From: Bacteroidota bacterium
GTDB lineage: Bacteria > Bacteroidota > Bacteroidia > Sphingobacteriales > Sphingobacteriaceae
Assembly (NCBI GenBank): GCA_013286235.1
Contig: JABDGE010000009.1
Span: forward strand, 1-64,000
Reading direction: 5' to 3'
DNA length: 64,000 nucleotides
Of the stretch, positions 741 to 25,599 are shown one piece after another (within the stretch, counting starts at the first letter, position 1; each line of letters starts with the position of its first letter). A model generated the notes under the pieces. That model searched no databases. It was not told the origin of the DNA and was given only the letters and a program-made list of their open reading frames with translations. A program made the translations under genes and the position numbers.

Positions 741-1310
741 TCAAAAAACAGGTGAAATTAAATGCTTGTGCTGACCGGAGATTATCCTTACCAATTCGTC
801 GCCGGCGTTTTCGATACTATCGTCGTTTTGTATTTTGATGCAGTTACTAAGGTCGCAATTGAGTTGGCTGCTGCGCCTGATCCTTTTTTCGATTTCTTCG
901 GTAGTTTCGCGACCGCGGCCGGCCAGGCGGCTGCTGATGGTTTCGGGGCTGGCTTCTACCAGGATGACCGTCATTTCGGGGTATCTTTGTTCGGCAAAGG
1001 GCAGGTATTCCCGCGAACCGTTCACCACAACATTACAGCCTTTTTCCATCCATGCATTTATCTCTGTGCCGATACCGTAGTGGTTGCCGTGGCTTTCCCA
1101 GTGCAAGGCGAAAAATCCCGCTTCAATCCGCAATTTAAATTCCGGGGCTGTTAAATGCACGTGGTTTTCATTGCCATTATTCGGTGGCCGGGTAATATAC
1201 CTATGGGCGAAGATGACCGGCTTTTCGCCATTTATCTTTGTCCGGGCATAATTCATCAGGGTATCTTTTCCGGCCCCCGAGGCGCCGATTACGTAAAATA
1301 ATGTGCTCAT
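741..1310 (-). CDS. phnN: Ribose 1,5-bisphosphate phosphokinase PhnN
   Basis: A 189-residue P-loop kinase of the guanylate-kinase-like fold. In the phosphonate pathway PhnN phosphorylates ribose 1,5-bisphosphate with ATP to give PRPP, the last step of C-P lyase catabolism. The Walker A motif GASGAGKDT covers residues 9-17. The segments RYITRPP and HWESHGNHYGIG match PhnN proteins, as does the RLAGRGRET lid-like stretch. It is the last gene of a three-gene minus-strand unit and overlaps the preceding kinase gene by 4 bp (ATGA type), so the two are probably translationally coupled. Length is normal for the family (about 185 residues). Confidence 0.92.
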   Translation of the reverse strand: MSTLFYVIGASGAGKDTLMNYARTKINGEKPVIFAHRYITRPPNNGNENHVHLTAPEFKLRIEAGFFALHWESHGNHYGIGTEINAWMEKGCNVVVNGSREYLPFAEQRYPEMTVILVEASPETISSRLAGRGRETTEEIEKRIRRSSQLNCDLSNCIKIQNDDSIENAGDELVRIISGQHKHLISPVF

Positions 1311-3199: not shown

Positions 3200-3291
3200 T
3201 AAAATCCTCCGAAAATCATTAGCAATTAACATTCCGCTAAACTGTACTTTAAATGTGAATCGTAAACTCGTAAACAAATTTACCGGGTAGC

Positions 3292-4008
3292 ATGAAGAAA
3301 AATCGGCTGGTAGTGATCGATGACCATTACGATGTGCTTGAGATGCTGAAGCACCATCTTGTTAACGATGGATACGAGGTTAAAATATTTTTTAATGCGG
3401 TTGATGCATTGAAGTATATCAATATAGACAACACCGACCTGGTGGTAACCGACTGGATGCTGCCCGAGATGGACGGACTGGAACTTTGCCGGAATTTAAA
3501 GATGAGCCAGTCGACCCAGGATATCCCTTTGGTGATGCTGACGGGAAAAAATGAGGAAATCGACGCGGTGACGGCGCTTGAAGTGGGTGCGGAAGACTAC
3601 TTGCCGAAGCCCATCCGGATGCGGGAACTGCTTAGCCGTATTAAAAAGATATTGAAAAGGAGCTCATCAGATGATGTTAGCCGCAATAAAAAGGAAATGC
3701 GCGACATCATTGAATGCGGTCCCTTAAAAATGAATCGTGTTAGCTATAAAGTTTTTTTAGACAATGAGCAACTTGAACTGACCATCGGCGAGTTTAAGCT
3801 GCTGGAACTGCTGGCCGGCAATCCCGGTAAGGTATTTTCGCGCAATCAGCTCATTGAGAAAATTAACGGCGCCCAATATTTTGCTACCGAGCGGTCGATC
3901 GATGTGCAGGTTGCCGGACTGCGAAAAAAGCTTGGACCCTACAAAGAGGCTATTGAGACGGTTCGATCGGTTGGATATAGGTTTAGCGAGGCGGTTCTGA
4001 ACCGTTGA
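3292..4008 (+). CDS. OmpR/PhoB-family response regulator (orphan)
   Basis: A 238-residue two-domain regulator. The receiver domain (residues 3-118) has the acidic pair IDD at 9-11, phosphoacceptor Asp54 in VVTDWMLPEMDG, Thr84 in VMLTG and Lys106 in LPKP, so it should be phosphorylatable. A winged-helix DNA-binding domain of Trans_reg_C type follows (about 138-232), ending in IETVRSVGYRF. No histidine kinase gene is adjacent, so the partner is elsewhere. Its place between the phnN unit and phnG makes it the obvious candidate regulator of the island, possibly sensing phosphate supply as PhoB does. That role is inferred from position. Confidence 0.9.
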   Translation: MKKNRLVVIDDHYDVLEMLKHHLVNDGYEVKIFFNAVDALKYINIDNTDLVVTDWMLPEMDGLELCRNLKMSQSTQDIPLVMLTGKNEEIDAVTALEVGAEDYLPKPIRMRELLSRIKKILKRSSSDDVSRNKKEMRDIIECGPLKMNRVSYKVFLDNEQLELTIGEFKLLELLAGNPGKVFSRNQLIEKINGAQYFATERSIDVQVAGLRKKLGPYKEAIETVRSVGYRFSEAVLNR

Positions 4009-4053
4009 TTCAACTGATTTTTCTGATTTCGTTGAAAAGACCAACTCCAAAAT

Positions 4054-4088
4054 CGTAAATCGTAATTCGTAATTCGTAAATCGTAAAT
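4054..4088. repeat. Five tandem heptamers CGTAAWT
   Basis: Five uninterrupted 7-bp units (CGTAAAT or CGTAATT) lie between the response-regulator gene and phnG. A related CGTAAAC word occurs twice, 8 bp apart, at 3261-3275 upstream of the regulator gene. Heptamer direct repeats can be binding sites for OmpR-family regulators. They could equally be one of the short-period intergenic repeats seen elsewhere in this window. Confidence 0.6.
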
Positions 4089-4190
4089 CAAAAATCATCT
4101 ACAGACCTTAAGATGAAAGCTTCTATTCCTCCTAACCATACCCTAACAGAAATATATTTTTTCACTAATTAATTCCAAATAATTGCCGCC

Positions 4191-4198
4191 TACTTTTG
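4191..4198 (+). promoter_or_regulatory. Putative Bacteroidota -7 box (TAnnTTTG) of the phn operon
   Basis: TACTTTTG is a perfect match to the Bacteroidota -7 element. No clear TTTG -33 element was found at the expected distance. If used, transcription would begin near 4205. That excludes TTG 4196 as the phnG start and favours ATG 4217. Confidence 0.45.
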
Positions 4199-4216
4199 GA
4201 CAAACCAACTGAACGA

Positions 4217-4636
4217 ATGGAAAACAGGGATTATATATTATGCGAATGTGAGTTGGAGCCGCTGGAGCGTTTTGTTGCCTCGCTGGAGGAAAAATTTGAA
4301 GCAAAGATAGCTAAGGCGCCTTCAGTTTGTATGACGATGATTCAGGCAGCGGATTCGGTTGAGCACCAGGAATTTTATTTAGGCGAAGCGCTGACCACCG
4401 AGTGCGAGGTATTGATTCACGGACAGCGCGGGTATGGCGTGTGCCTGGGTGACGAGCCGGTACGCAGCTATTGCATCGCCTTTATTGACGCCCTGGCCCA
4501 ATTGCCTGGCGCCGACCTTAGCTACGTTGAAGCTTTTTTAGCTGAACAGGAAAGCATCATTAATAAAGCCGCACAGCTGGAATATAACCAGATCATGCGC
4601 ACCAAGGTTGACTTTAAATTGATGGAGGAGGAATAA
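4217..4636 (+). CDS. phnG: C-P lyase core subunit PhnG
   Basis: A 139-residue PhnG, slightly shorter than the E. coli protein (150). With PhnH, PhnI and PhnJ it forms the C-P lyase core that links phosphonate to the C1' of ATP, displacing adenine. Recognised from FYLGEALTTECEVLIHGQRGYG, here read as the GE...T.CEV and GYGVCLGDEPV pattern, and the C-terminal E.QR..M.TKVDF-like helix. ATG 4217 is chosen over TTG 4196 because a TAnnTTTG promoter box overlaps 4196. It is the first gene of the long plus-strand run; phnH follows after 1 bp. Confidence 0.88.
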   Translation: MENRDYILCECELEPLERFVASLEEKFEAKIAKAPSVCMTMIQAADSVEHQEFYLGEALTTECEVLIHGQRGYGVCLGDEPVRSYCIAFIDALAQLPGADLSYVEAFLAEQESIINKAAQLEYNQIMRTKVDFKLMEEE

Positions 4637-4637
4637 T

Positions 4638-5258
4638 ATGCAAACTGAACTGAATTACGACGTAGTGTTTGACGCCCAGGAGCATTTCCGCTTGCTGCTC
4701 GACAGCATGTCGAGGCCGGGTAAGATCAATACATACCCGCTGGTGGACATTCTTCCCCCGGAAGGCATTACCCAGGGGGCGGCGCTTACAGGCTTCGCCT
4801 TGCTGAATGCCGACGTGAGCCACTGCATTACCGGCGAAAATGCCGGAGAGATTGCTGATTACCTGCTTATAAATACGGCGTCGCAGCAGGCTGATCCCAG
4901 TGTTGCCGATTACGTTTTTGTACCGGAAGATTACTTTGGCGAAGAACTGTATGGGGCACGTAACGGAACGGCAACTTACCCGGAGGACAGCACGACATTG
5001 ATCATCTCATGCGAATTGATCAGCGACAAGCCGCATGGAAATTCGCGAAAGTTTACCTTAAAGGGGCCGGGTGTAAATGGCATAGCCGAAGTATATGTAA
5101 GCGGCATTAATGCCGACTTGCTTCACTTCATCAAAGACAGCAATTCCGAATATCCGCTGGGCATTGACATGGTGATCACCGACCGGTACAACAACATACT
5201 GGGCATTCCGCGGAGCAATAATTTTAGTTTTTCGCATCCTGAGCATTTTAATCTTTAA
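4638..5258 (+). CDS. phnH: C-P lyase core subunit PhnH
   Basis: A 206-residue PhnH, normal length. The N-terminal FDAQEHFRLLLDSMSRPGKI is diagnostic: the family carries R..L.AMA/SRPG. Later G.ALTGFALLNADVSHC and the C-terminal YPLGIDMVITD..N...IPRS also match. PhnH dimerises within the PhnGHIJ core and resembles a PLP-dependent-enzyme fold without the cofactor. It starts 1 bp after phnG and ends 11 bp before phnI, so the genes are co-transcribed. Confidence 0.92.
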   Translation: MQTELNYDVVFDAQEHFRLLLDSMSRPGKINTYPLVDILPPEGITQGAALTGFALLNADVSHCITGENAGEIADYLLINTASQQADPSVADYVFVPEDYFGEELYGARNGTATYPEDSTTLIISCELISDKPHGNSRKFTLKGPGVNGIAEVYVSGINADLLHFIKDSNSEYPLGIDMVITDRYNNILGIPRSNNFSFSHPEHFNL

Positions 5259-5269
5259 AATATAAGAGT

Positions 5270-6397
5270 ATGGGTTATGTAGCAGTAAAGGGCGGTACCG
5301 AAGCCATTCATAATGCCAGTGAGCTGGCTGAATTTTATCGCGTAAAAGATAATACCACGCCTATCGACGTTAAACAGATCAGGACGCAAATGCGGCTTGC
5401 TATTGACAAGGTAATGGGCGAAGGCGGTATTTATGCGCCTGAATATGCGGCCATCGCCCTGAAACAGGCAGAGGGCGACGTGTACGAAGCGGCATTTATC
5501 CTGCGGGCCTTCCGCACTACGCTGCAGCGCAATTATTATACGGAAGAGATCAATACGCGGGAAATGTTCGTAAGGCGCAAGATATCCGCATCTTTTCGCG
5601 AAATACCCGGCGGGCAGGTGCTTGGGCCGACACGTGATTACACCCAACGGACGCTCGACACCGCAAAGGCAACTGAAACCACTGCCGATATCCATTTATT
5701 CCTTGAACAGGTCGACGCAAAGATCGACCCGGAAAAATTACAGGAGATCAATTCTTTCGGTAAGGTAATTGACCTGCTGAAAAATGAAGGGCTGTTGAAA
5801 CCGATAGATCCTTCGGATGACCGGAAGCTGGTCGACATTACCCGCGAGGCCATCAAATTTCCTGCGCCGCGTTCGGCGAGGCTGCAAATGATGGCACGTG
5901 CCGAAACAGGGGGCCTTATGGCTTTAGGTTACAGCAGCCAGCGCGGCTTCGGCGGCGTACACCCGACGGTTGGTGAATTGCGCTATGGAACTGTCCCCCT
6001 GCGGGTAAAAGATGCGAGCGGCAGGCTGCGGTACATCGGTAAAATTGAAGTGACCGAGTGCGAAATGGTAACCGGCAGCAAGCCTGGCAAGAAAAATACG
6101 CCGCCATACTTTACCATTGGTTATGGTTTGTGTTTTGGCCATAACGAAACCAAAGTTATTTGCATGAGCACCCTCGACAGCGCTATGCGCAGGCCCGAGC
6201 TGGGCGCACCCGCAAACGACCAGGAATTTGTTTTGTACCATACCGAAGGGGTTGAAGCGATGGGCTTTACCAATCACCTTAAGCTGCCGCACTATGTAAC
6301 CTTCCAGTCTATATTAAGCAATACCCGCGCATCGGTTGAGCGTAGCAAAAAAGCAAATCTTGAAGCGGAAGCCTGGCGGCAACTGGCATCGGTTTAA
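5270..6397 (+). CDS. phnI: C-P lyase core subunit PhnI (nucleosidase)
   Basis: A 375-residue PhnI. PhnI carries the nucleosidase activity that, with PhnG and PhnH, replaces adenine of ATP by phosphonate. The N-terminal MGYVAVKGG and LRAFRTT, the central GGLMALGYSSQRG and the C-terminal YHTEGVEAMGF are strongly conserved. The two metal-site histidines of the HxxxxH motif are kept (His336 and His341 in HLKLPH, matching E. coli His328 and His333). The catalytic centre at the PhnI-PhnJ interface therefore looks intact on the PhnI side, in contrast to PhnJ. Spacing to phnJ is 12 bp. Confidence 0.94.
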   Translation: MGYVAVKGGTEAIHNASELAEFYRVKDNTTPIDVKQIRTQMRLAIDKVMGEGGIYAPEYAAIALKQAEGDVYEAAFILRAFRTTLQRNYYTEEINTREMFVRRKISASFREIPGGQVLGPTRDYTQRTLDTAKATETTADIHLFLEQVDAKIDPEKLQEINSFGKVIDLLKNEGLLKPIDPSDDRKLVDITREAIKFPAPRSARLQMMARAETGGLMALGYSSQRGFGGVHPTVGELRYGTVPLRVKDASGRLRYIGKIEVTECEMVTGSKPGKKNTPPYFTIGYGLCFGHNETKVICMSTLDSAMRRPELGAPANDQEFVLYHTEGVEAMGFTNHLKLPHYVTFQSILSNTRASVERSKKANLEAEAWRQLASV

Positions 6398-6409
6398 ACA
6401 TCATATACC

Positions 6410-7324
6410 ATGGTTGAGAATATCAAATTTTCCAATAAATACAATTTTGCCTTTATCGACGAATCCACCAAAAAGGAAATTCGCCGCAAGCTGCTCAAGG
6501 CGGTAGCCATACCCGGTCACCAGGTGCCGTATTCGTCGCCCGAAATGCCGATCTCTCGCGGGTGGGGAACAGGCGGCCTTCACATCACGCTTGCGCTTAT
6601 CGGCCGGAGCGATGTGTTCAAGATCATTGACCAGGGCAGCGACGCCAGCGTAAATGCCTGCAACCTGCGCGAGTTCGTAAACGCAATGACCGGCTGCGAA
6701 ACCACTTTCGACACCTCCAAAGCCACACTGGTGCAAACCCGCCACCGCATTACGGAGGAGGAACTGAACGAAAACCAGATCATTGTTTTCCAGGTGCCAT
6801 TGCCCGAGCCTTTGCGGATGGTTGAGCGCTACGAGTATAAAACGCTGCAAATGCATGCCGAAGCTGATTATTCCAAAATGTGGGTTTCCCTCTACGAGGC
6901 GTATGTACGTTACGGCGCCATTATGCAGGGATCTGGTTATCCTGTAATGGTAAACGGCAGGTATATCATGTCGCCGTCGCCTATCCCACGCTGGGATACG
7001 CCGAACCTGCACCAGGCCAAAACGCTGTTCTTATTCGGCGCAGGACGAGAGAAACGCCTTTACGCGGTACCGCCTTATACAGATGTGGAGCCACTTGAAT
7101 TTGAAGACGTAAACTTTGAGATAGAAGACTTCAGCAAAAGCGCCTGCTATAAAACCGGCTTTAAAAAGGCTTTCCTGGATGAGCTGTACGCCGATGACGG
7201 CTCACAGAAATACGTGATCAGCGACAGCAATTTCCTCGACAAGATCGACAGCGAGGAAGAAACCCATCAATACACCAATAAATACATCGACCAACTGGAA
7301 GCATATGACGTGGAAAGAGGATAA
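6410..7324 (+). CDS. phnJ: PhnJ homologue lacking the radical-SAM cysteines
   Basis: A 304-residue PhnJ (E. coli 281). The body aligns well: the start YNFAFIDESTKKEIRRKLLK, AVAIPGHQVP with the conserved Gly36 (E. coli Gly32), QTRHRI, FQVPLPEPLR, and FGAGREKRLYAVPP. The C-terminal cysteine motif CX2CX21CX5C, which holds the 4Fe-4S cluster and the catalytic thiol, is broken. By ungapped alignment to LDE, Cys246 matches E. coli Cys241, but the positions of Cys244, Cys266 and Cys272 are Thr249 (ACC 7154), Ile270 (ATC 7217) and Leu276 (CTC 7235). Only three cysteines exist in the whole chain (84, 96, 246). The frame is continuous on both sides, so this is not a frameshift. The tail is about 20 residues longer than usual. 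It overlaps phnK by 20 bp. Confidence 0.93.
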   Translation: MVENIKFSNKYNFAFIDESTKKEIRRKLLKAVAIPGHQVPYSSPEMPISRGWGTGGLHITLALIGRSDVFKIIDQGSDASVNACNLREFVNAMTGCETTFDTSKATLVQTRHRITEEELNENQIIVFQVPLPEPLRMVERYEYKTLQMHAEADYSKMWVSLYEAYVRYGAIMQGSGYPVMVNGRYIMSPSPIPRWDTPNLHQAKTLFLFGAGREKRLYAVPPYTDVEPLEFEDVNFEIEDFSKSACYKTGFKKAFLDELYADDGSQKYVISDSNFLDKIDSEEETHQYTNKYIDQLEAYDVERG

Positions 7325-8153
7325 CTGGCTGCTGCGCGTGCGCAACCTGACAAAAATATACGGCGACCCCGGTGAAAATACCCTGGCGCTCACCGGCCCC
7401 GCTTTTAATACCAATCAATGCCCGGATACCGACAGCATTGTGGCCTGTGCCGATATCAGCTTTGACCTTTACCCGGGTGAAGTGCTGGGTATTGTGGGGG
7501 AGAGCGGCTCGGGCAAGAGCACTGTAGTAAAAATGCTCTATTTCGACCTTGAAAAAACCGGCGGTGCAGCCTGGCTGAAACCTTATAACGACGGCTGCAT
7601 CAATATACTGGAGGAATCGAACCAGCGGAAACGCTATATCCGCAATAACCTGATGGGAATGGTGTACCAAAATCCCCGCGATGGCCTGAACTTTGGTTTT
7701 TCCTCGGGCGGGAACATCGCTGAAAAACTGATCATGGCGGGGAATATGCATGTGGGCAACATCAGGGGCCGGGCTTACGACTTGCTGGAGAAAACCGAAG
7801 TACCTGTGCAACGTATGGACGACCGGCCGGGCACCTTCAGCGGTGGCATGCAGCAGCGGGTGCAGATATCCAAAGCGATTGCTAATAACCCGCCGCTGCT
7901 GTTTTTGGATGAAGTAACTACCGGGCTGGATGTTTCGGTACAAGCCAGGGTGCTCGACCTGATCCGCGAACTGCAGAATATGCTGGGTATAGCGATGATC
8001 GTGGTGTCGCATGACCTCTCGGTTATCCGGATGCTCACCGACCGCACCATCGTCATGAAAAACGGCCGGATAGTGGAAAGCGGACTGACTGACCAGATCC
8101 TGCAAGACCCGCAGCACGCCTATTCGCAACTATTAGTAAGCTCATTATTATAA
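7305..8153 (+). CDS. phnK: C-P lyase ATP-binding subunit PhnK
   Basis: A 282-residue ABC-type ATPase (E. coli 252). Walker A GESGSGKST is at 65-73, the Q-loop YQNP at 121-124, signature FSGGMQQR at 178-185, Walker B LLFLDEV at 198-204 and the H-loop His at 236. PhnK binds as a dimer to the PhnJ face of the core complex and is not a transporter subunit. The approximately 30 extra residues lie between the N-terminal strand and Walker A. Translation starts 20 bp inside phnJ, which suggests coupled synthesis of the two partners. All ATPase motifs are intact. Confidence 0.92.
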   Translation: MTWKEDNWLLRVRNLTKIYGDPGENTLALTGPAFNTNQCPDTDSIVACADISFDLYPGEVLGIVGESGSGKSTVVKMLYFDLEKTGGAAWLKPYNDGCINILEESNQRKRYIRNNLMGMVYQNPRDGLNFGFSSGGNIAEKLIMAGNMHVGNIRGRAYDLLEKTEVPVQRMDDRPGTFSGGMQQRVQISKAIANNPPLLFLDEVTTGLDVSVQARVLDLIRELQNMLGIAMIVVSHDLSVIRMLTDRTIVMKNGRIVESGLTDQILQDPQHAYSQLLVSSLL

Positions 8154-8161
8154 AAACACCT

Positions 8162-8878
8162 ATGAACATATTAGAAGTTAATGATCTGAGTAAAGTGTTT
8201 AACCTGCACATCCTTAATGAAAAAAAGATCGAGGCGCTTAAGCAGATCAACTTTGCGATGAAGGAGGGCGAGATCATAGGTCTGACGGGAAAATCAGGCT
8301 CGGGTAAGTCCAGCCTCATGAAATGTATTTACCGCACTTACCTGGCATCGTCTGGAGAGATCATTTACGCGTCGCGGGCAGGTGCAATTGATATGGCAAC
8401 CGCCGATGACCACCAGGTTATTGACCTGCGGAAATCAGAGATCACCTATTGCTCCCAGTTTTTAAGTGTCATCCCGCGGGTATCGGCGGTGGATGTGGTT
8501 TGCGAAAATTTGTTCAGGATAGAAAAGGATAAGGAGCAGGCGCGCGAAACCGCGAAAGGCATGCTTGAAATGCTTGGCTTGCCAACCGACTTGTGGGATG
8601 CCTTCCCTGTAACTTTCAGCGGGGGCGAGCAACAGCGCATCAATGTTGCCCGGGCCATCATTGCCCGGCCACGGTTTTTGCTGATAGATGAACCAACCGC
8701 TTCACTCGACGCCAAAACAAAGGACGTTGTTATTGACCTGATATCCGACCTAAAAAAGAATGGCACTTCGGTGCTTTGCATATCGCACGATGAATACACT
8801 TTGGACCGGCTGGTCGACAGGCGTTTGCATTTGCATTTGGGCGAGATCAACGACGCTGCAGTAGTTGAAGCTAATTAA
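8162..8878 (+). CDS. phnL: C-P lyase-associated ATPase PhnL
   Basis: A 238-residue ABC-type ATPase. Walker A GKSGSGKS is at 43-50, signature FSGGEQQR at 152-159 and Walker B LLIDEPT at 173-179. The PhnL-like stretch FNLHILNEKKIEAL near the N-terminus distinguishes it from PhnC and PhnK. In E. coli PhnL docks on the PhnK dimer of the C-P lyase complex. It lies 8 bp after phnK and 17 bp before phnM, within the same run. Nothing unusual is seen. Confidence 0.9.
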   Translation: MNILEVNDLSKVFNLHILNEKKIEALKQINFAMKEGEIIGLTGKSGSGKSSLMKCIYRTYLASSGEIIYASRAGAIDMATADDHQVIDLRKSEITYCSQFLSVIPRVSAVDVVCENLFRIEKDKEQARETAKGMLEMLGLPTDLWDAFPVTFSGGEQQRINVARAIIARPRFLLIDEPTASLDAKTKDVVIDLISDLKKNGTSVLCISHDEYTLDRLVDRRLHLHLGEINDAAVVEAN

Positions 8879-8895
8879 TAAATATTTAAAAAAGA

Positions 8896-10113
8896 ATGAG
8901 TTTAATCGTTATTACTAACGCAACCGTGGTTACCCCCTTCGAGGTGCTGAATGGCGCATCGGTAGTGATTGAGCAGGGTATAATTAAACAGGTGGCGCAG
9001 CAGGTTGATGAACCAGTTGGCGCTACGGTAATTGATGCAGCGGGAGCAATATTGATGCCCGGCATTATTGACATCCATACCGACGCCATGGACGCCGAGA
9101 TCGTTCCCCGGACGGGAGCCGATATACCTATTGCGGTAGCCTTCAGAGAGCTGGAACGTAAAATGAGCGGCTGCGGTTTCACCACGGTGTATCATTCGCT
9201 GCATTTAGGGTATGACATGGCCGAGGTGCATTCGCGCAGCAAGTATAGCCGTAACCAGGTTTTTGAGACCGTTCACCGCGCGGCAAACGGCAGCACTTTA
9301 CTGAACAATAAAATACACCTGCGTTTCGAGCTATCGGGCGTCAATTCATACGATACCTGCTTGGAACTGATGGATAAGGGTTATGTAGACCTGCTTTCGG
9401 TAATGGACCATACCCCGGGGCAGGGGCAGCTGACCAAGGAACATTTTATAGAATATGCTATAAAAATGGGCAGGTCGGAAGCAGAGGCGCTCCGGTTGTA
9501 CGATGAAAGGACCAGCGTGCCCATCATTGAAGGCGAGCGGCTGGAAGCGTTGATCAGCCATGCGCAAAAACTGAATATCCCTGTCGCCTCACATGATGAT
9601 GATTCGACACAGAAGGTCGATTATTTTCACCGGATAGGGGTAAATATCTGTGAGTTCCCCATCAACATGGAAACAGCACAGCACGCCGCCCGATTGGGCA
9701 TGCATGTGGTAGGGGGCGCTTCGAATATCCTGCGCGGCGGCTCGCTATCAGGGAACTTAAGCATGAAAGAAGCGGTGTTAAATGGCGCCGTGGACACGCT
9801 GTGCTCAGATTATTATCCGCCATCGATCTTGCACTCGGTATTTAAACTTTACAATGAGGAAGGCTTGCCTTTACACGAAGCTGTTAACTTAGCTACGCTG
9901 AACGCGGCTAAGGCGGCCGGCATCAGCCACCTTACCGGCAGCATTGAAGCAGGCAAAGACGCAGACCTTTTGCTGGTTAATTTAGTTGATGGCCTGCCGA
10001 TGGTTACGCATACCATCGTACAGGGGAACGTTGTTGCACAGGCCAGTTATAAAAAATTATATAACGAGCGGGATAGGTTGAACCATAATGTACATGTAAC
10101 CAATGAATTATAA
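8896..10113 (+). CDS. phnM: RPnTP hydrolase PhnM (first copy)
   Basis: A 405-residue amidohydrolase-superfamily enzyme. PhnM removes pyrophosphate from 5-triphosphoribosyl 1-phosphonate. The sheet-end metal motif GIIDIHTD is near residues 57-63. Also present are LLSVMDHTPGQG, SHDDDST, GGASNILRGGSLSGN and LCSDYYPPSIL, all close to E. coli PhnM. One deviation is RGGSL where E. coli and the second copy have RGGSH. It is followed by the 2H phosphoesterase gene with an 11 bp overlap. A divergent second phnM lies at 24396. Confidence 0.92.
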   Translation: MSLIVITNATVVTPFEVLNGASVVIEQGIIKQVAQQVDEPVGATVIDAAGAILMPGIIDIHTDAMDAEIVPRTGADIPIAVAFRELERKMSGCGFTTVYHSLHLGYDMAEVHSRSKYSRNQVFETVHRAANGSTLLNNKIHLRFELSGVNSYDTCLELMDKGYVDLLSVMDHTPGQGQLTKEHFIEYAIKMGRSEAEALRLYDERTSVPIIEGERLEALISHAQKLNIPVASHDDDSTQKVDYFHRIGVNICEFPINMETAQHAARLGMHVVGGASNILRGGSLSGNLSMKEAVLNGAVDTLCSDYYPPSILHSVFKLYNEEGLPLHEAVNLATLNAAKAAGISHLTGSIEAGKDADLLLVNLVDGLPMVTHTIVQGNVVAQASYKKLYNERDRLNHNVHVTNEL

Positions 10114-10918
10114 GACAGCCACAATCGAAACAGCGACTATGAGCGATTTGCCCTTTGTCGACTATACAAACAGGCAGCTTTACGAGGTCTCCGCCGCGAG
10201 AAACCGTGAAAGGGCCTTGAAAACCAAGCCGGCCGGCAATTTTGTTTTTCAACAAAATAAATGGCAGCCGCAGGAGTACGAAGGTTTTGCCGTCGTATCC
10301 ATGCTGAGTGAAAATGAAGGGAACGCGCCGCTGCTGGCCCGGTTGATCTCGGTGCAGGAAGAGTTGAAATATAACCTTGAGCCGCGTTACGGGTTTTACC
10401 TGTTGCCCCCGGATAGCTTCCATCAAACAATTGCCAATACCTTATCAGCCGACCGTTTTAAACAGCACATTTTATATGCCGGCCTTGAAGCAGCATACCC
10501 CGTTTTGGTCGAACAGGCATTTGACCAAATAGCATCATCCGGCGAAGGCAAGGTCTTACCTATGAAAATGATCGGATTGAGCATATTCGGCACCGCTATA
10601 GGCATGCTGGGTATTTTTGAGGATGAAGCAGCTTATCAGCGGGTAACGAATTTCAGGGCCGGATTTTATGGTAACCATGAGCTCGCCGCGCTGGATGTGC
10701 GGATGACACGCCCTTTCATAGGCCATATCACGCTGGCTTATATTGAACATAGCCTCAATAAAAATCAAAAAGACCAGCTCGCCATCGTTGTAAGCGAAAT
10801 CAACGAAGCCTTGCTTTCGGAAAAGCTCCTTTTCAACATTGCGAATGCCGGCCTGCGCCGCTATCATCACCTGGCGGAGTTTATTAAACGGGATGACTAT
10901 CCTGATTTTAAACTGTAA
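10103..10918 (+). CDS. 2H phosphoesterase-like phosphonate-operon protein
   Basis: A 271-residue protein with the two signature HxT motifs of the 2H phosphoesterase superfamily: His107-Gln-Thr109 in DSFHQTIAN and His208-Ile-Thr210 in IGHITLAYI. 2H enzymes act on cyclic phosphates, typically 2',3'- or 1,2-cyclic bonds. DUF1045-type 2H proteins occur in other phn operons. Since phnP is absent here, this protein is the best candidate to open the ribose cyclic phosphate made by C-P lyase. That role is inferred. The first about 80 residues have no match I recognise. ATG 10103 overlaps phnM by 11 bp; ATG 10139 is an alternative. Confidence 0.72.
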   Translation: MNYKTATIETATMSDLPFVDYTNRQLYEVSAARNRERALKTKPAGNFVFQQNKWQPQEYEGFAVVSMLSENEGNAPLLARLISVQEELKYNLEPRYGFYLLPPDSFHQTIANTLSADRFKQHILYAGLEAAYPVLVEQAFDQIASSGEGKVLPMKMIGLSIFGTAIGMLGIFEDEAAYQRVTNFRAGFYGNHELAALDVRMTRPFIGHITLAYIEHSLNKNQKDQLAIVVSEINEALLSEKLLFNIANAGLRRYHHLAEFIKRDDYPDFKL

Positions 10919-10936
10919 AATCAAACAAATATTGAT

Positions 10937-11587
10937 ATGGCATACCTTGAAGCATACCCGCCGGTAACCGAAGAAAAAAAGGAACGCACGTTGGGGGAGG
11001 AACCCTATATCCATCCCAGCTGTATAATCAGGGACAGTTCGATTGGTACATGGGCCGCATTGGGTCCGAATACCTGGCTGGTGGAATCAACCTTCGGCGA
11101 TTACAGCTATACGGCAGGCAATGTACAGATCATCTACTCGGAAATAGGAAAATATTGCTCTATCGCCAATAGCGTGCGGATAAATCCGGGCAATCATCCG
11201 CAATGGCGGGTTACCCAGCACCACATGACCTACCGCCGCAAGCATTATCAATTGGGCGAAGAAGATGACCTGGAATTTTTTCAATGGCGGCGCGACCATA
11301 AATGTACCGTAGGCCATGACGTATGGATAGGACATGGCGCGGTGATTATGCCGGGCGTCACCATCGGTACCGGTGCGGTGATAGGCTCGGGTGCGGTGGT
11401 GACGAAAGACATCGGCCCTTACGAAGTCGCGGTAGGGGTTGCTGCAAAAGTTATAAAAAAACGTTTTGACGATGCTACCATCGAAAAGCTGCTGGCCAGC
11501 GCGTGGTGGGAATGGGACCGCGAAACCCTGGAAAACAATTTTGACGATCTGCTGAATTTAGAAGTTTTCCTGGACAAACACTGTTGA
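10937..11587 (+). CDS. Phosphonate-type hexapeptide acyltransferase (first copy)
   Basis: A 216-residue left-handed beta-helix protein of the CatB/xenobiotic acyltransferase type. It matches the phn-associated hexapeptide family (TIGR03308-like): [20 protein letters not shown] at the N-terminus, [20 protein letters not shown] in the middle, with catalytic-type His, then [27 protein letters not shown] coils, cited here as [12 protein letters not shown]. Such enzymes transfer acyl groups from CoA to amino or hydroxyl groups; the phn family substrate is not established, perhaps aminoalkylphosphonates. It stands between the 2H gene (18 bp) and the first phnD (9 bp). Confidence 0.85.
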
Positions 11588-11596
11588 AAACCAAGC

Positions 11597-12520
11597 ATGA
11601 AACCAGTTATCAAGTTATTCATCCTGTTGCTGGTTTTCACAGCTGTTGGTTGTCAGGATAAAGCGGCGCTGAATGATAAGGGCGTTCCGGGAGAACTGGT
11701 GATCGGGATATTTGGCGGAGAAAATCCCGGCCACACCCAAAAGATTATGGACGGCATCCGGACAAACATGGAAAAGGCTTTGGGCATGCCGGTTAAGATG
11801 CTGGTGACCAACGACTATACAGCGGTTATTGAGGCCCTTCATTCCAAAAAGATCCACATGGGATACCTGGGCCCATTTTCATACATCCTGGCCGCCCAAT
11901 ATAAAGATATCGACCCAATAGCGGTAATAGGTTTGCAGGGCAAGCCTTACATGTATCATAGCAATATTTATGTGCGGACATCGTCGGGCTTGAATAGCAT
12001 GGCTGATGTTAAGGCGCATGCAAAAGACCTTACCTTCTGCTTTACTGATCCGGCATCGACATCGGGTCACCTGGTGCCGAGGGCTTATCTGAATTCTATC
12101 GGCCTGAATCCTGACAGTGCCTTTAAACAAACGGTATTTGCGGGAAGTCACGCTGCCGCGGTATTGAGTGTTGCTGCGGGCAAAGTAGATGTCGGCTGTG
12201 CTACTGATGAATACGGGATCGACTTCCTGGTAAAAAAAGGGCTGATCAAAAAAGGTGTGCTGAAGGTATTGTGGACGTCGGATCCGATCACAGGTAGCCC
12301 GGTGGTGATCCGGAAGGACATTAATAAAGACCTGGTAAGGAAAATTCAGCAGTATTATTTCACCATGGCAAAGCAGCAACCGCAGGCATTTCATGATTAT
12401 ATTATGGCCTATTATGCATTTCCGCCGGCCGACCTAACATATGTCGCGATCGCCGATTCCGACTTTAATTCGATCAGGAAAATGGCAGCGAGCTTGAAGG
12501 ATACGAGGTTGATTCACTGA
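11597..12520 (+). CDS. phnD: PhnD-like phosphonate-binding lipoprotein (copy 1)
   Basis: A 307-residue substrate-binding protein of a phosphonate-type ABC transporter. The signal peptide ends at the lipobox AVGC (Cys near 19), so it should be membrane-anchored, as is usual where the periplasmic protein is lipid-modified. The PhnD motif DPASTSGHLVPRAYL holds the Ser-Thr-Ser anion-binding loop. NDYTAVIEAL, GPFSYI and LWTSDPITGSPVV follow the family. After the second helix it reads CATDEYG, keeping an acidic residue in the ligand pocket. It is the first of three tandem paralogues. Confidence 0.88.
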   Translation: MKPVIKLFILLLVFTAVGCQDKAALNDKGVPGELVIGIFGGENPGHTQKIMDGIRTNMEKALGMPVKMLVTNDYTAVIEALHSKKIHMGYLGPFSYILAAQYKDIDPIAVIGLQGKPYMYHSNIYVRTSSGLNSMADVKAHAKDLTFCFTDPASTSGHLVPRAYLNSIGLNPDSAFKQTVFAGSHAAAVLSVAAGKVDVGCATDEYGIDFLVKKGLIKKGVLKVLWTSDPITGSPVVIRKDINKDLVRKIQQYYFTMAKQQPQAFHDYIMAYYAFPPADLTYVAIADSDFNSIRKMAASLKDTRLIH

Positions 12521-12553
12521 GCGGAAAGCTTAAAGCTGAAAGACCAAAGCTGA
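12520..12553. repeat. Intergenic repeat word AGCGGAAAGCTTAAAG... (copy 1)
   Basis: A roughly 34 bp word beginning AGCGGAAAGCTTAAAG and ending CCAAAGCTGA lies directly after phnD copy 1. A near-identical word is found at 54466-54499 after a different gene. It belongs to the short repeats spread through intergenic DNA here. Confidence 0.65.
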
Positions 12554-12606
12554 AGACGGCTCGTAGTTCAAAGCAGGCGTGGGACTGAGGCAAAATTGAG
12601 GCGGTG

Positions 12607-12639
12607 AGACTTACGAAGTTTTCAAAACTTCGTAAGTCT
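12607..12639. repeat. 33-bp perfect palindrome, copy 1
   Basis: AGACTTACGAAGTTTT, a single C, then its exact reverse complement. The same 33 bp occurs at 47772-47804 with G at the centre. Here it sits inside the phn run, between phnD copies 1 and 2, without a following T-run, so it may act as an attenuator or mRNA-stabilising hairpin rather than a full terminator. Confidence 0.9.
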
Positions 12640-12686
12640 TCGCAAGTCTGACAGGGGGTTAATTTCATTAAATAAAAAAAAAGAAT

Positions 12687-13607
12687 ATGAAGTTCCGGAT
12701 AATGATTCTTAGCTTGTTGCTGGCGGTATATTGCCTGGCGTCATGCAGTAGCCCCGGCGACCTCGATAGCAAGGGTATACCAAGGAAGCTGGTGATAGCC
12801 AACGTCCAGGCGGAGAATATCAACCAAATAAAAGAAGTGCGGGAAAAGATCCGGGCAATCCTTGAGAAGAAATTGGGTATCCCGGTTGAAGCGATCCAAA
12901 CGAATGATTATACCGGTGTTATAGAAGCCCTGAAGGCAAAAAAAGTGGACATGGCCGACATTCCGCCGTTTGCCTATATAATAGCGACCCGCGAAATGAA
13001 ACTTTACCCCCTGGTTACATTGGGGCAGGACGGAAAAGCTTTCACTTACCGGAGCGTGATCATTTCCAACGGACATGGCAATATTAAAACCATGGCCGAT
13101 GTAAAGGCGAACTCGAAGAACCTGACTTTTGCTTTTGTCGACCCGGCATCAACTTCCGGGCACCTCATTCCGCGGGCATATCTCAACTCCATTGGTTTAA
13201 ATCCCGACAGCGCGTTTAAGCAGACCATTTTTGCAGGAAATCACCTGGCCGCGGTACTGGCGGTAAAATCCGGCAAGGTGGACGTGGCCTGCAGCACCAG
13301 CATTATGTTTGGTTTGATGACCAAGCAAAAAATGATAGCCGACGGCGATATCCGCGTGCTGTGGACATCTGACCCGATCGTCGCGCAGCCCATTGTTATA
13401 CGCGACGACATTAATAAGGAGTTCGCAAAAAAAATCCAGGATGCATACCTCTCCATCAACACGGAGGAACCCGAGCTGCTGCAAAAATATATAAAGATAT
13501 TTCTGCCGACGGCAAAAACGGCAACTTTCGTCACCATTAAGGACTCGGACTACGACGGTTTGCGAAAAATAGCGGCCGGCATAAAAGATTTGAGAGACAC
13601 CAAATAA
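12687..13607 (+). CDS. phnD: PhnD-like phosphonate-binding lipoprotein (copy 2)
   Basis: A 306-residue paralogue of copies 1 and 3, with lipobox LASC (Cys near 19) and the DPASTSGHLIPRAYL anion loop. It differs in the pocket: MADIPPFAYI replaces the YLGPFSYI or YLSPFSYV of its neighbours, and CSTSIMFG replaces the CATDEYG or CSTMEYG segment, so the acidic residue there is lost. A change of ligand (for example a phosphonate without an amino group) is plausible but unproved. A 166 bp spacer holding a palindrome separates it from copy 1; copy 3 follows after 14 bp. Confidence 0.88.
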   Translation: MKFRIMILSLLLAVYCLASCSSPGDLDSKGIPRKLVIANVQAENINQIKEVREKIRAILEKKLGIPVEAIQTNDYTGVIEALKAKKVDMADIPPFAYIIATREMKLYPLVTLGQDGKAFTYRSVIISNGHGNIKTMADVKANSKNLTFAFVDPASTSGHLIPRAYLNSIGLNPDSAFKQTIFAGNHLAAVLAVKSGKVDVACSTSIMFGLMTKQKMIADGDIRVLWTSDPIVAQPIVIRDDINKEFAKKIQDAYLSINTEEPELLQKYIKIFLPTAKTATFVTIKDSDYDGLRKIAAGIKDLRDTK

Positions 13608-13621
13608 AAGCTGAAAGTCCC

Positions 13622-14545
13622 ATGAAAACGCACGCACTTATCCTCTTCGCCGCTTTAATGATCCTGGTGAGCGGTTGCAAAAACAGTGCTGACCTGGATG
13701 CAGACGGCGTACCCGGCAAATTGGTGATCGCTATTTATGCGGGCGGCGATAATCCGGCGGCAGTAAAATCAGCCATGGCTGAATTGGGAAAGTATCTTGA
13801 AAAAAAGCTGGATATGCCGGTGAGCTATGCGTTCTCCACTGATTATACTTCCGTAATCGAAGCCATAAGAGCAAAAAAAGCACACATCGCTTACTTAAGC
13901 CCATTCTCCTATGTGCTGGCTTCTCAAACCCACGATATAACGCCCATTGCCTCCCTTGGGGAAGACGGTAAACCGACGATGTACCACAGCGTTATTATTA
14001 CTAACCCCGGCACGCGTATTAACAGCATGGCTGACGTGAAGGCGAGGGCTAAAAGCCTCACGCTTTGCTTTGCCGACCCGGCGTCGACATCGGGGCACCT
14101 TATCCCGCGGGCTTACCTCGTAACCCTTGGACTGAACCCCGACAGCGCCTTTAAGCAGGTGATCTTTGCAGGCAGCCACCCGGCATCGATCTTATCAGTA
14201 GCCTCGGGCAAGATCGACGTAGGTTGTTCAACGATGGAATATGGAATTCAAAAGCTGGAACGCGGCGGGGAGCTAAAGCCGGAACAGATAAAAGTCCTTT
14301 GGGAGTCCGACCCGATTGTTTCGAGCCCCATCGTCGCCCGCAATGACCTCAATAAAGCCTTCGTCAAAAAAATACAGGACCTCTATCTTAACCTGGCCAA
14401 AGACGCCCCCAACGTTTTTGCAGCCTATATCAAGCTTTATCACCCAAAGCTAAACGGGTTGAGCTATATGACGGTAGACGATTCGATGTATAACGGACTG
14501 CGGAAGATAGCCCGCGGAATAAAAGACATAAATGTTGCGCAATAA
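13622..14545 (+). CDS. phnD: PhnD-like phosphonate-binding lipoprotein (copy 3)
   Basis: A 307-residue periplasmic phosphonate-binding lipoprotein with lipobox VSGC (Cys near 19). It shares the DPASTSGHLIPRAYL loop and LWESDPIVSSPIV with its paralogues and keeps the acidic residue in CSTMEYG. It is the copy nearest the phnC-phnE-phnE transporter genes (20 bp to phnC), so it may be the original partner. Start ATG 13622 gives a normal signal peptide. Confidence 0.88.
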   Translation: MKTHALILFAALMILVSGCKNSADLDADGVPGKLVIAIYAGGDNPAAVKSAMAELGKYLEKKLDMPVSYAFSTDYTSVIEAIRAKKAHIAYLSPFSYVLASQTHDITPIASLGEDGKPTMYHSVIITNPGTRINSMADVKARAKSLTLCFADPASTSGHLIPRAYLVTLGLNPDSAFKQVIFAGSHPASILSVASGKIDVGCSTMEYGIQKLERGGELKPEQIKVLWESDPIVSSPIVARNDLNKAFVKKIQDLYLNLAKDAPNVFAAYIKLYHPKLNGLSYMTVDDSMYNGLRKIARGIKDINVAQ

Positions 14546-14565
14546 CGATTTTAACAGAACAGGAT

Positions 14566-15357
14566 ATGCTGGAAGTAAAGAATTTAACCAAGACATTGCC
14601 AAACGGGCGAAGGCTGCTTGATGGCATCAGTTTTAAAGTGAAGAAGGGCGAGTTTGTTGGCATACTCGGATCGAGCGGAGCGGGTAAAACGCTTACGCTT
14701 CGCTGCCTTAACGGTTTGCTTAAACCTGATTCGGGCTCGGTGATCATCAGGGATGAACACGACCGCCCGCTGGATATTTGCAAGATCAACAAAAGGGAAT
14801 TGAGGCGCGTAAGGCAAAAGATTGGGGTGATCTTCCAGGGGTATCACCTGGTAAAACGACTGTCGGCGCTCGAGAACGTGATGATCGGGAAGCTCGGCCA
14901 GATCAATACCTTCAGGAGCCTTTTTTATGGTTTTACGGATACGGAGGCGGAGCAAGCCTTGAAGGCGCTTGATAAGGTCAAAATGTCGGAGTTGGCCGGT
15001 TCGATGACGGGCAACCTGAGCGGCGGCGAAATGCAGCGTGTAGCCATCGCCCGAGCGATCTTCCAGTCACCCACGCTATTGCTTGCCGATGAGCCTATAT
15101 CGAACCTCGATCCCAGCAATGCCAAAACAATTATGAAAATGATCAAGCCGCTCTCGGAACATATGCCTGTAATAGGGGTATTTCATCAGCCTGAAATGAC
15201 TGCCAAATACTGTTCGCGTGTAATCGCTATAAAAGAAGGAAAGATCATTTACGATGGCGACCCAAAGCTGTCAAACAAACGCCTCGAGGAAATATACGGT
15301 GAAGAGTTGGAGCTGATCGAGCAGCAGGAGCACCTTTTGGCGGCAATAGCAAAATAA
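14566..15357 (+). CDS. phnC: Phosphonate ABC transporter ATPase PhnC
   Basis: A 263-residue ABC importer ATPase. Walker A GSSGAGKT is near residues 36-43, the Q-loop VIFQGYHLV near 88-96, the signature LSGGEMQR near 151-158 and Walker B LLLADEPISNLDP near 171-183. The LVKRLSALENVMIGKLG stretch is typical of PhnC, which energises uptake through the PhnE permeases. It starts 20 bp after the third phnD and is followed after 6 bp by the first phnE. Confidence 0.92.
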   Translation: MLEVKNLTKTLPNGRRLLDGISFKVKKGEFVGILGSSGAGKTLTLRCLNGLLKPDSGSVIIRDEHDRPLDICKINKRELRRVRQKIGVIFQGYHLVKRLSALENVMIGKLGQINTFRSLFYGFTDTEAEQALKALDKVKMSELAGSMTGNLSGGEMQRVAIARAIFQSPTLLLADEPISNLDPSNAKTIMKMIKPLSEHMPVIGVFHQPEMTAKYCSRVIAIKEGKIIYDGDPKLSNKRLEEIYGEELELIEQQEHLLAAIAK

Positions 15358-15363
15358 AGCGCG

Positions 15364-16158
15364 ATGCAAGCAAGGATGTATAGTTTTAAGCGGTACAGGA
15401 AATTTATTCTGCCGCTTATTATTTTATTGGCGGTGACCGAAGGCGCGGCCATTATTTGCGGGGCGACTTTCGGGAAGCTATTTGAAGGGCTGTATCGGGG
15501 AATAGCTTTTTTTGGCAACATGTACCCGCCCGACTGGAGCGCTTTTTCGGAAATGCTGGAACCGGCGCTGCAGTCCATCGTTATTGCGTTTTTGGGAACC
15601 GTGTTCGGCGCTTTAATGTCGATTGTTTTTGCATTGCTGGCGGCTTCCAATCTTTCCCATCCATGGGTGCGTGCGATCACCCGTTTCCTGATCGGTTTAG
15701 AAAGGTCGATCCCCGAGATCGTTATCCTGATCTTACTGGTAGCCGCATTCGGGCTGGGCGCTATGCCCGGAGTTGTGGCGCTATCGCTGGGCTGTATCGG
15801 GATGCTGGGCAAACTGCTCGCCGACATTATCGAGGAGATTGACCCTTTGATGATCGAATCCATCGAATCAGTGGGGGGCAATAAGCTCCAGGTAATCGTT
15901 TTCGGCGTGCTGCCGCAAATCATTCCAAATATTATCTCCTATACCTTGTTCCGGTTCGAGATCAATATCCGTTTATCGGTGCTGCTGGGCGCCGTGGGCG
16001 CCGGGGGGGTCGGCTACGAGCTGGATTACTCCTTCGGGATGCTGCAGTATCACCGGGCTTTTACAGCAATGATCATTATCATTGCGATGGTATTCGCCAC
16101 GGAGCAGCTTTCGTACTATTTGCGGAAGAAGCTTAAAATGGAGGGTGCATTGAAATGA
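15364..16158 (+). CDS. phnE: Phosphonate ABC transporter permease PhnE (copy 1)
   Basis: A 264-residue inner-membrane permease with about six hydrophobic segments, beginning with residues 14-36. The EAA loop contacting PhnC is seen in LLADIIEEIDPLMIESIESV..., followed by LPQIIPNIISYTLFRFEINIR, a PhnE hallmark (cited here as LPQIIPNIISY). It overlaps the second permease gene by 4 bp (ATGA type), so the two are probably made together and form the heterodimeric channel. Confidence 0.92.
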   Translation: MQARMYSFKRYRKFILPLIILLAVTEGAAIICGATFGKLFEGLYRGIAFFGNMYPPDWSAFSEMLEPALQSIVIAFLGTVFGALMSIVFALLAASNLSHPWVRAITRFLIGLERSIPEIVILILLVAAFGLGAMPGVVALSLGCIGMLGKLLADIIEEIDPLMIESIESVGGNKLQVIVFGVLPQIIPNIISYTLFRFEINIRLSVLLGAVGAGGVGYELDYSFGMLQYHRAFTAMIIIIAMVFATEQLSYYLRKKLKMEGALK

Positions 16159-16967
16159 GCACGGCTGAGCTTACCCTCCCTTCAAAAAAATACAGGCAAA
16201 AAATGACAGTGTTCAGCATCGTTGTTGTCGCGGTGGCGCTGGCTTGTATCTATACCAATTTTAATCCGCTGGGGATCTTCATGGAGTTTCACTATGTCCG
16301 CGACCTGGTGGGCGAAATGACCCCGCCGAATTATCACGTGCTTTCGGATAATTCGTCAACGGCAATGGCTATCCTCCAAACCTTGTCGTTGGCTTTTTTG
16401 GGCACCCTGTACGGCGGTGTCATCGCGGTGGTTGTCGCCTTCCTGGCAGCTTCCAACACCATGCCATTCAGGGCCATACGTTTAACAGCGCGTTTTGTCC
16501 TTTCGTTTTTGCGGGTTATCCCGATTTTGGTGGTCATTCTCATCTTTGTGATCGCGGTTGGGCCAAGCACGTTTGCCGGCATGCTGACCCTGGTTATCGT
16601 CACCGTAGGTAATTTTGGAAAATTGTTCACGGAGATGATCGAGAATGTGGATAATCCGCCGGCAGAAGCGATTTTTTCGGTAGGCGCCTCGCGGATGCAG
16701 GTGATCAGGTATTCCATCATTCCGCAGATATTGCCGACGCTTATCGCAAACCTTTTATTTGCATTCGACGTGAATATCCGCGCTGCGATAGGGCTGGGCA
16801 TATTTGGAGGCGGTGGCATAGGCTTCCAGTTGCAGTTGGCAAAAAGCGTTTTGCATTATAAAGACGTGACGGCCATTGTGAGTTTGATCATTATCATGGT
16901 GATAGTGGTGGAGAAGATATCGGATTATTTAAGGAGAAAGATACTGGGGGAGGGGAAACTTCGGTGA
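16155..16967 (+). CDS. phnE: Phosphonate ABC transporter permease PhnE (copy 2)
   Basis: A 270-residue permease paralogous to the preceding one, with TM segments from about residue 17 on, the EAA loop FTEMIENVDNPPAEAIFSVGA and the following IPQILPTLIANLLFAFDVNIR region (short motif IPQILPTL). It completes the phnC-phnE-phnE set. After its stop come 70 bp with no gene, then the second hexapeptide acyltransferase. Confidence 0.92.
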   Translation: MSTAELTLPSKKYRQKMTVFSIVVVAVALACIYTNFNPLGIFMEFHYVRDLVGEMTPPNYHVLSDNSSTAMAILQTLSLAFLGTLYGGVIAVVVAFLAASNTMPFRAIRLTARFVLSFLRVIPILVVILIFVIAVGPSTFAGMLTLVIVTVGNFGKLFTEMIENVDNPPAEAIFSVGASRMQVIRYSIIPQILPTLIANLLFAFDVNIRAAIGLGIFGGGGIGFQLQLAKSVLHYKDVTAIVSLIIIMVIVVEKISDYLRRKILGEGKLR

Positions 16968-25595: not shown

Positions 25596-25599
25596 GAAA

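Follow-up and report, generated by a model that had tools for sequence, protein, structure and literature searches.

A C-P lyase operon clade with a PhnJ lacking three of the four metal-site cysteines and with a cysteine-rich PhnG

The phn operon of the window, the whole stretch of 64,000 nucleotides analyzed here, encodes a PhnJ without three of the four cysteines of the E. coli metal site and a PhnG with six cysteines. Both traits belong to a single clade of C-P lyase operons. The favored reading, drawn from sequence comparison and held with slightly less than even confidence, is a C-P lyase variant whose cysteine-ligated cofactor site would have moved from PhnJ to PhnG. It is favored because no other reading accounts for both the gain and the loss within a single clade whose pathway is otherwise intact.

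PhnJ and its clade

The gene and the positions of interest within it are as follows (Cys2-4 denotes the second to fourth cysteines of the E. coli site).

6410..7324, plus strand: phnJ, form without Cys2-4; ORF of 304 amino acids, PF06007 match of 422.7 bits, model and PDB match
6530..6568, plus strand: PhnJ loop 41-53 (E. coli 37-49); Ser42 and Pro44 fixed in the clade
6581..6583, plus strand: PhnJ His58 codon; His in 28/28 clade rows, Gln in 37/37 four-Cys rows and 7/7 other Cys-less rows
6659..6661, plus strand: PhnJ Cys84 codon; Cys in 28/28 clade rows, 0/37 four-Cys rows, and 1/7 other Cys-less rows
7139..7243, plus strand: C-terminal module (four-Cys site in E. coli); C246 kept, T249, I270, and L276 replacing the other three

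The first-pass annotation described a full-length PhnJ by its body with Cys246 alone of the four cysteines, Thr249, Ile270, and Leu276 occupying the other positions, and a one-residue gap in the motif alignment. This description is borne out throughout. The ORF is open and full length; the PF06007 match (cut-off, 25 bits) covers profile positions 2 to 271 of 275, and the alignments return the same residues with exact numbering (C246 at 7145-7147, T249 at 7154-7156, I270 at 7217-7219, and L276 at 7235-7237). A phmmer alignment with E. coli PhnJ (7z15 and 4xb6) shows the gap. The E. coli pattern CX2CX21CX5C (Cys241, Cys244, Cys266, and Cys272) is not found in the window PhnJ, which lacks counterparts of Cys244, Cys266, and Cys272 and whose cysteines are C84, C96, and C246. 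A conserved Asp-Lys follows the altered module. The AlphaFold2 model (pLDDT, 83; pTM, 0.84; pLDDT below 50 at residues 1 to 14, 47 to 52, and 299 to 304) is a prediction that superposes on E. coli PhnJ 7z19_H over 272 columns with an rmsd of 1.7 Å and a TM score of 0.93 by target. In the model, the C-terminal module forms an ordered hairpin and helix with no metal.

Residues of the substrate pocket are retained. Gly36, Arg111, His112, and Gln128 of the window PhnJ (E. coli Gly32, Arg107, His108, and Gln124, the window numbering being that of E. coli plus four) are kept in 72/72 rows. According to the available portion of PMC9947105, Arg107 and Gln124 contact the ribose, His108 contacts the cyclic phosphate, and loop 37-49 lines the pocket of E. 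coli PhnJ; the conservation agrees with these ligand contacts. The radical-site residue Gly32 is conserved as Gly36, which speaks for the presence of the residue and not of a radical. In the part of PMC11978286 at hand, the four cysteines together with Gly32 serve as a check of PhnJ models.

The 72 PhnJ rows comprise 28 of the clade, 37 with four cysteines, and 7 other Cys-less forms. Second copies from the same genome or contig are dropped from the counts, as are the subthreshold fragment L087 and the plasmid copies L097 to L111; L091, with an insert within the motif, is counted as four-Cys. In a tree of these rows that omits the C-terminal module and the trait columns, the Cys2-4-less form of the window makes up one clade of 28 rows with a support of 100/100, and a quick tree of 52 PhnJ rows gives the clade a support of 99. 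The first-pass annotation had asked whether Cys-less PhnJs form a clade, which they do, and whether that clade is tied to Bacteroidota, to which it is not confined. Its members belong to Bacteroidota, Verrucomicrobiota, and one Acidobacteriota contig, and a Bacteroidota-only trait is ruled out by two Opitutaceae (L025 and L026), the genome G1016 from the phylum of the Opitutaceae, and one Bryobacteraceae record (L024). G1016 carries the clade form on a contig of 4.09 Mb; L024 lies on a contig of 3.6 kb and could be misbinned.

PhnJ is encoded in 11 of 399 genomes drawn from the window's family, all 11 lacking Cys2-4; 10 of these genomes are 97 to 100% complete, and none of the 11 has more than one PhnJ. 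In a draw of 395 genomes across the phylum, PhnJ is found in one, the window's own. A scan of named genomes gives 31 phnJ loci, 14 of the four-Cys form and 17 of the clade form; the latter come from Mucilaginibacter, Sphingobacteriaceae, Emticicia, Puia, Fibrisoma, Cytophagales, and Chitinophagaceae entries, the two Opitutaceae, the Bryobacteraceae record, and an unplaced Bacteroidetes bin. Family draws around Fibrisoma and L041 have PhnJ in 3/200 and 3/195 genomes, respectively, seeds included, always in the clade form. The phylum of L025 has PhnJ in 5/288 genomes with the seed, L053 and L057 being of the clade form and L054 to L056 four-Cys, and the phylum of L024 has it in 1/247, the seed itself. 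In a control draw from the phylum of L028, PhnJ exceeds the cut-off in 14/218 genomes, all of them four-Cys and inclusive of the 4/23 genomes of the L028 class. A single PhnJ is found in each of 24 clade genomes searched: the window's own MAG, 10 relatives that are 97 to 100% complete, 10 more of unstated completeness, and 4 more, with one duplicate pair merged and the genome of L016 left out. The second, canonical PhnJ considered in the first-pass annotation is not found in these 24 genomes, of which the window's own is a MAG with 65% completeness.

Whole-gene dN/dS for phnJ is 0.01 to 0.05 in the 7 of 10 pairs for which it is computable (with dS exceeding 1 in 5 of these 7), and for the stretch of residues 240 to 282, it is 0 to 0.15 in 6/10 pairs, the rest being saturated. 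For phnG, values of 0.08 to 0.18 are obtained in 4/8 pairs with the gene. The low ratios indicate that the altered PhnJ C terminus is kept and is not decaying. An artefact or a decaying operon, be it through assembly error, frameshift, or pseudogene formation, is exceedingly improbable. The window does come from a MAG of 218 contigs and 65% completeness; against this, the same state recurs in 28 rows, including isolates and multimegabase contigs, dN/dS is far below 1 wherever computable, and internal stops are absent. The case that the first-pass annotation named against itself, an assembly error among four-Cys relatives, is contradicted by the family genomes, whose PhnJs share the Cys-less state.

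Seven tabulated PhnJs outside the clade also lack Cys2-4: those of Haematobacter (L065), Rhizobium sp. 11515TR (L066), Sinorhizobium sp. B11 (L088), Nitratireductor (L089), Microvirga (L096), and Thermus (L067 and L112); an eighth, L111, was seen. As plasmid controls, 14 of the 215 matching records were selected by choice, not at random. Like the clade form, the PhnJs of the Rhizobium, Sinorhizobium, Nitratireductor, Haematobacter, and Microvirga plasmids and of the Thermus plasmids, including pVV8, have lost three cysteines and kept the first. They differ from it in retaining the canonical Arg44 and Gln58 and in having neither PhnI Cys298 nor a Cys-rich PhnG (no more than one of the six cysteines). 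The Microvirga sp. VF16 plasmid NZ_CP069355.1 (L096) carries nine PhnJs, seven four-Cys and two Cys-less (L110 and L111), and one of two PhnJs on the Haematobacter plasmid is Cys-less. In these two the Cys-less forms sit beside four-Cys copies, unlike in the clade. The remaining four of the six plasmid records searched hold one PhnJ each. S. meliloti 2011 PhnJ (L093) has the four cysteines. Where annotated, the plasmid Cys-less proteins are labeled as ordinary PhnJ. Among six of these outside loci compared, PhnN and DUF1045 matches lie nearby in L096 only. The 72-row tree calls for two changes between the four-Cys state and its absence; one suffices in 29% of 200 bootstrap trees. That PhnG always compensates for the Cys loss is ruled out by the plasmid and Thermus forms. 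Ohtani 2012 reportedly bears on whether Thermus HB8 carrying pVV8 grows on phosphonate. As far as the available text goes, a paper citing Ohtani 2012 gives phosphonate metabolism genes as enriched on pVV8, and two others make no mention of phosphonate.

Cysteines gained in PhnG and other residues of the clade

4196..4636, plus strand: phnG, Cys-rich form; TIGR03293 match of 90.5 bits, narrowly above the cut-off of 89, and model match to E. coli PhnG

While the body of PhnJ and its losses were read correctly in the first-pass annotation, the six cysteines of PhnG in the same operon were overlooked. Numbered from a TTG start, they are C16 (4241-4243), C18 (4247-4249), C45 (4328-4330), C70 (4403-4405), C83 (4442-4444), and C93 (4472-4474). 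PhnG is countable in 20 of the 28 clade rows, the remaining loci being too short; 16 of the 20 have all six cysteines, 3 have five, and 1 has four. By site, the clade counts are 19/20 for C16, 20/20 for C18, 19/20 for C45, 18/20 for C70, 20/20 for C83, and 19/20 for C93. In the 32 loci with a four-Cys PhnJ, the corresponding numbers are 0, 2, 0, 10, 0, and 0 (none of the six in 20 loci and one in 12), and in the 7 loci with another Cys-less PhnJ, they are 0, 0, 0, 1, 0, and 0 (none in 6 and one in 1). All 39 rows outside the clade thus have at most one of the six, and five of the six cysteines of the clade PhnG are all but absent elsewhere. E. coli PhnG (L064) has no cysteine at any of these positions. 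The sampled canonical PhnGs are 20 to 30% identical to the window PhnG, so the cysteine columns rest on the alignment.

The PhnG model (pLDDT, 91.6; residue numbers 8 lower than in the TTG-start numbering) superposes on E. coli PhnG 4xb6_A with a TM score of 0.79. C45, C70, and C83 lie on the three strands, and C93 is in the helix that follows strand 3; C16, close to where helix 1 ends, and C18, between helices 1 and 2, form a CxC. PhnG is homologous to residues 197 to 321 of PhnI (hhalign probability, 98.2; E value, 2.8e-14), with C93 of PhnG aligning onto C298 of PhnI. In a Foldseek search with the PhnJ model, PhnH ranks next after PhnJ, so that the core complex appears to consist of two duplicated folds, PhnG with the PhnI domain and PhnJ with PhnH.

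Further residues set the clade apart. Ser42 and Pro44 of the PhnJ pocket loop are each found in 28/28 clade rows and in 1/44 rows outside; Tyr41 is likewise present in 28/28 rows, yet also in 9/44 outside. The lone Cys84 beyond the clade is that of the Microvirga Cys-less copies. PhnI Cys298 (6161-6163) is present in 27/28 clade rows versus 1/37 four-Cys rows, the exception being L113, and PhnL Cys97 (8450-8452) is present in 25/26 clade rows. Across PhnG to PhnM, clade-fixed residues that are rare outside the clade number 46, and 8 of them are cysteines; a crude binomial gives 7e-8 for 8/46 at a cysteine background of 1.2%, with sites that are not independent. Two relatives with a four-Cys PhnJ already have parts of the signature: L114 has the Tyr-Ser-Pro loop, with C70 as its only PhnG cysteine of the set, and L113 has PhnI C298 and none of the six. 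L024 keeps Cys2 of PhnJ and lacks C93 of PhnG, the sole such row of the clade. Parts of the signature are thus possible without the loss of the PhnJ cysteines, but the PhnG set occurs only in rows with that loss.

Operon content and product handling

The other genes of the operon and its surroundings are as follows.

741..1310, minus strand: phnN; TIGR02322 match of 212.2 bits versus a cut-off of 156
4638..5258, plus strand: phnH; PF05845 match of 125.4 bits versus 25
5270..6397, plus strand: phnI; PF05861 match of 441.5 bits, zinc-site His231, His336, and His341 (E. coli His219, His328, and His333)
7305..8153, plus strand: phnK; best NCBIfam match TIGR02323 at 235.1 bits, below the cut-off of 302.85; position after phnJ as in related loci
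8162..8878, plus strand: phnL; best NCBIfam match TIGR02324 at 251.8 bits, just below the cut-off of 256.3
8896..10113, plus strand: phnM; NF011990 match of 399.5 bits versus a cut-off of 233
10103..10918, plus strand: 2H-phosphoesterase-like ORF; two HxT motifs (residues 107 and 208), a conserved member of the clade operon
10937..16967, plus strand: hexapeptide transferase (TIGR03308), three phnD-type binding proteins, phnC, and two phnE

The phnGHIJKLM cluster is complete at 4196-10113 in the order G-H-I-J-K-L-M on the plus strand. The gene order given by the first-pass annotation, G, H, I, K, L, M, and N, applies from G to M; phnN lies upstream on the minus strand. The HxxxxH motif of PhnI, recorded there as kept, is present as H336 and H341; these two zinc histidines are found in 72/72 rows and His231 in 69/72, including 27/28 of the clade. 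Among the transport genes, TIGR01098 scores above the cut-off for all three phnD-type proteins and TIGR01097 for both PhnE proteins; phnC reaches 256.3 bits with TIGR02315, below the cut-off of 266.1. The three phnD-type genes are consecutive at 11597-14545, and their number varies among relatives.

The ORF at 10103-10918, which we take to be a 2H phosphoesterase from its HxT motif, occurs in 15/17 clade loci of at least 12 kb versus 0/22 four-Cys loci. It matches no NCBIfam or Pfam family at an E value of 0.001 and has no PDB relative; from its sequence, it is possibly a new cyclic phosphodiesterase family of phn operons. PhnP and DUF1045 are not found in the 17 clade loci by single-query blastp, and PhnN is matched in 9/17. 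The retained pocket residues, together with the frequency of the 2H-like gene and of PhnN, fit a pathway via ribosyl phosphonate and cyclic phosphate.

Several other genes accompany the operon. A second hexapeptide transferase is located at 17038-17697 (TIGR03308, 279.5 bits). The region 24396-26355 encodes a second PhnM-like protein (NF011990, 285.1 bits versus a cut-off of 233), which matches the PhnM of the Opitutaceae loci more closely than the operon's PhnM does, followed by what appears by eye to be a calcineurin-type phosphoesterase. Between phnN and the phn operon, the minus strand at 1307-2896 encodes a pyridoxal-kinase-like/PfkB protein and an endonuclease/exonuclease/phosphatase protein, matched in 3/17 and 5/17 clade loci of at least 12 kb, respectively. 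No Rfam family is found within 2800-4400 at gathering thresholds. Among 272 unmatched ORFs of the 17 clade loci, taken after an overlap filter, no family is shared by more than 6 loci. A radical supplied by another gene of the operon was rejected on this count; such a gene elsewhere in the genome is possible. A TonB-dependent-receptor-like ORF, recognized by eye (e.g., L019:15442-18873), lies near the phn cluster in 6/17 clade loci of at least 12 kb and is possibly an outer-membrane port for the substrate. The other recurrent unmatched family, present in five loci, is large and unnamed.

Interpretation and significance

Compared with the E. coli PhnGHIJKL complex (4xb6 and 7z15-7z19), the window system has the same subunit set, the same G-to-M order, the same folds of PhnJ and PhnG, the same four pocket residues, and the same PhnI zinc histidines. 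It differs in the cysteines of PhnJ and PhnG, in the exchange of Gln for His at E. coli PhnJ residue 54 and of Arg for Pro at pocket-loop residue 40, and in the 2H-like phosphoesterase, which is found near the operon in place of PhnP. A further comparison can be drawn with the noncanonical radical SAM enzyme ThiC (PMC4389238, in the portion available), which has its cluster cysteines near the C terminus, as is proposed for canonical PhnJ in the accessible section of PMC7916636, where ThiC and PhnJ are compared; the clade PhnJ lacks such a C-terminal motif. Neither a description of a Cys-less PhnJ nor growth or activity data for a clade member were found in the open-access literature among the matches listed, and the excerpts of PMC10574752, PMC12455932, PMC10291797, and PMC9381506 hold nothing that bears on it.

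In the relocation of the cofactor site to PhnG, the PhnJ C-terminal module, three of its four metal ligands lost, would be retained as a metal-free scaffold. A metal cluster, probably of the [4Fe-4S] type, would most likely be bound by the six PhnG cysteines and take over the role of the E. coli PhnJ site. PhnJ keeps its substrate pocket with an altered loop and a histidine at residue 58, and Cys84 is a candidate substitute for the catalytic thiol Cys272. The PhnI zinc site is unchanged. The product would be handled by the 2H phosphoesterase and PhnN, the former presumably opening the cyclic phosphate in place of PhnP, and the complex as a whole would still cleave the C-P bond. The signature has weak points in the PhnG C70 of 10 four-Cys rows, the PhnI C298 of one, and the Cys84 of the Microvirga copies, and since loss and gain fall on one stem, their association counts as a single event. 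The plasmid and Thermus PhnJs count against the relocation as well, as Cys loss in them needs no compensation by a Cys-rich PhnG, and the PhnG cysteines could also be structural zinc ligands or redox thiols. The broader proposition, a radical C-P lyase with the ligand set moved from PhnJ to PhnG or, should the PhnG cysteines not be Fe-S ligands, a complex cleaving without a PhnJ-bound cluster, is about evenly balanced between true and false. The first-pass annotation had concluded that C-P cleavage should be impossible by the known route; this holds only if the cofactor ligands cannot sit elsewhere, and the six cysteines of PhnG offer such a place. Its own proposals, a nonradical complex or a structural PhnJ, are possible but no longer the most economical reading.

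A nonradical complex, carrying out phosphoryl chemistry at the PhnI/PhnJ zinc site without SAM, is rather unlikely, though it deserves the most attention among the alternatives to the relocation. Here, the ribose 2-OH would attack the phosphorus of a ribosyl-1-X 5-phosphate to give the 1,2-cyclic phosphate, X being a workable leaving group, such as a phosphate ester, phosphoramidate, activated phosphonate, or phosphite, and the PhnG cysteines would bind a structural zinc. In its favor, the residues examined at the zinc site and for substrate binding are all retained, with only the Fe-S ligands gone; in the available text of PMC9947105, a ligand modelled as PRcP occupies the zinc of the E. coli complex, which had been produced without phosphonate, and ∼30 Å separate the putative Fe4S4 site from the glycine radical site. 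Cys-less PhnJs without a Cys-rich PhnG exist, and in 2/6 plasmid records they stand beside four-Cys copies, as expected for a different task. However, zinc-site chemistry leaves the fixation of the PhnG cysteines in the same clade unexplained, no other PhnJ is found in the clade genomes searched, and the operon retains phosphonate transporters and PhnM. More doubtful still is a purely structural PhnJ in a complex that performs PhnI-type ribosyl transfer, with the PhnG cysteines in redox sensing or structural zinc binding. The C-terminal module ordered without metal and the superposition of the model on the E. coli chain are scaffold-like. The invariant pocket residues speak against it, as do the newly invariant Pro44, His58, and Cys84, two of them in or adjoining the pocket loop, which suggest a changed and not a lost catalysis, and also the retention of PhnM in the window and of PhnN and the phosphoesterase in clade loci.

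The group behind the structures describes the C-P lyase mechanism as an unresolved conundrum (PMC9947105, in the passages available), and the distance between the Fe-S site and the glycyl radical is set out as a problem in the available part of PMC7916636. With the PhnJ cysteines gone, others gained in PhnG, and the remainder of the complex retained, the lineage offers a natural set of mutants with which to locate the true cofactor site. The clade occurs in some soil and freshwater bacteria, in whose enzyme the metal site may have moved or the chemistry may be different. Genes and transcripts of phnJ serve as a measure of the potential for methane formation from methylphosphonate, and phnJ transcripts or genes of Sphingobacteriales are abundant in some lake samples, as far as the accessible text of PMC9617973 goes. 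If these lake phnJ genes are of the clade form, the count may include enzymes that make no methane or make it by another route. If either the relocation or cleavage without a PhnJ-bound cluster is true, the four-cysteine site of PhnJ would not be the invariable heart of the enzyme.
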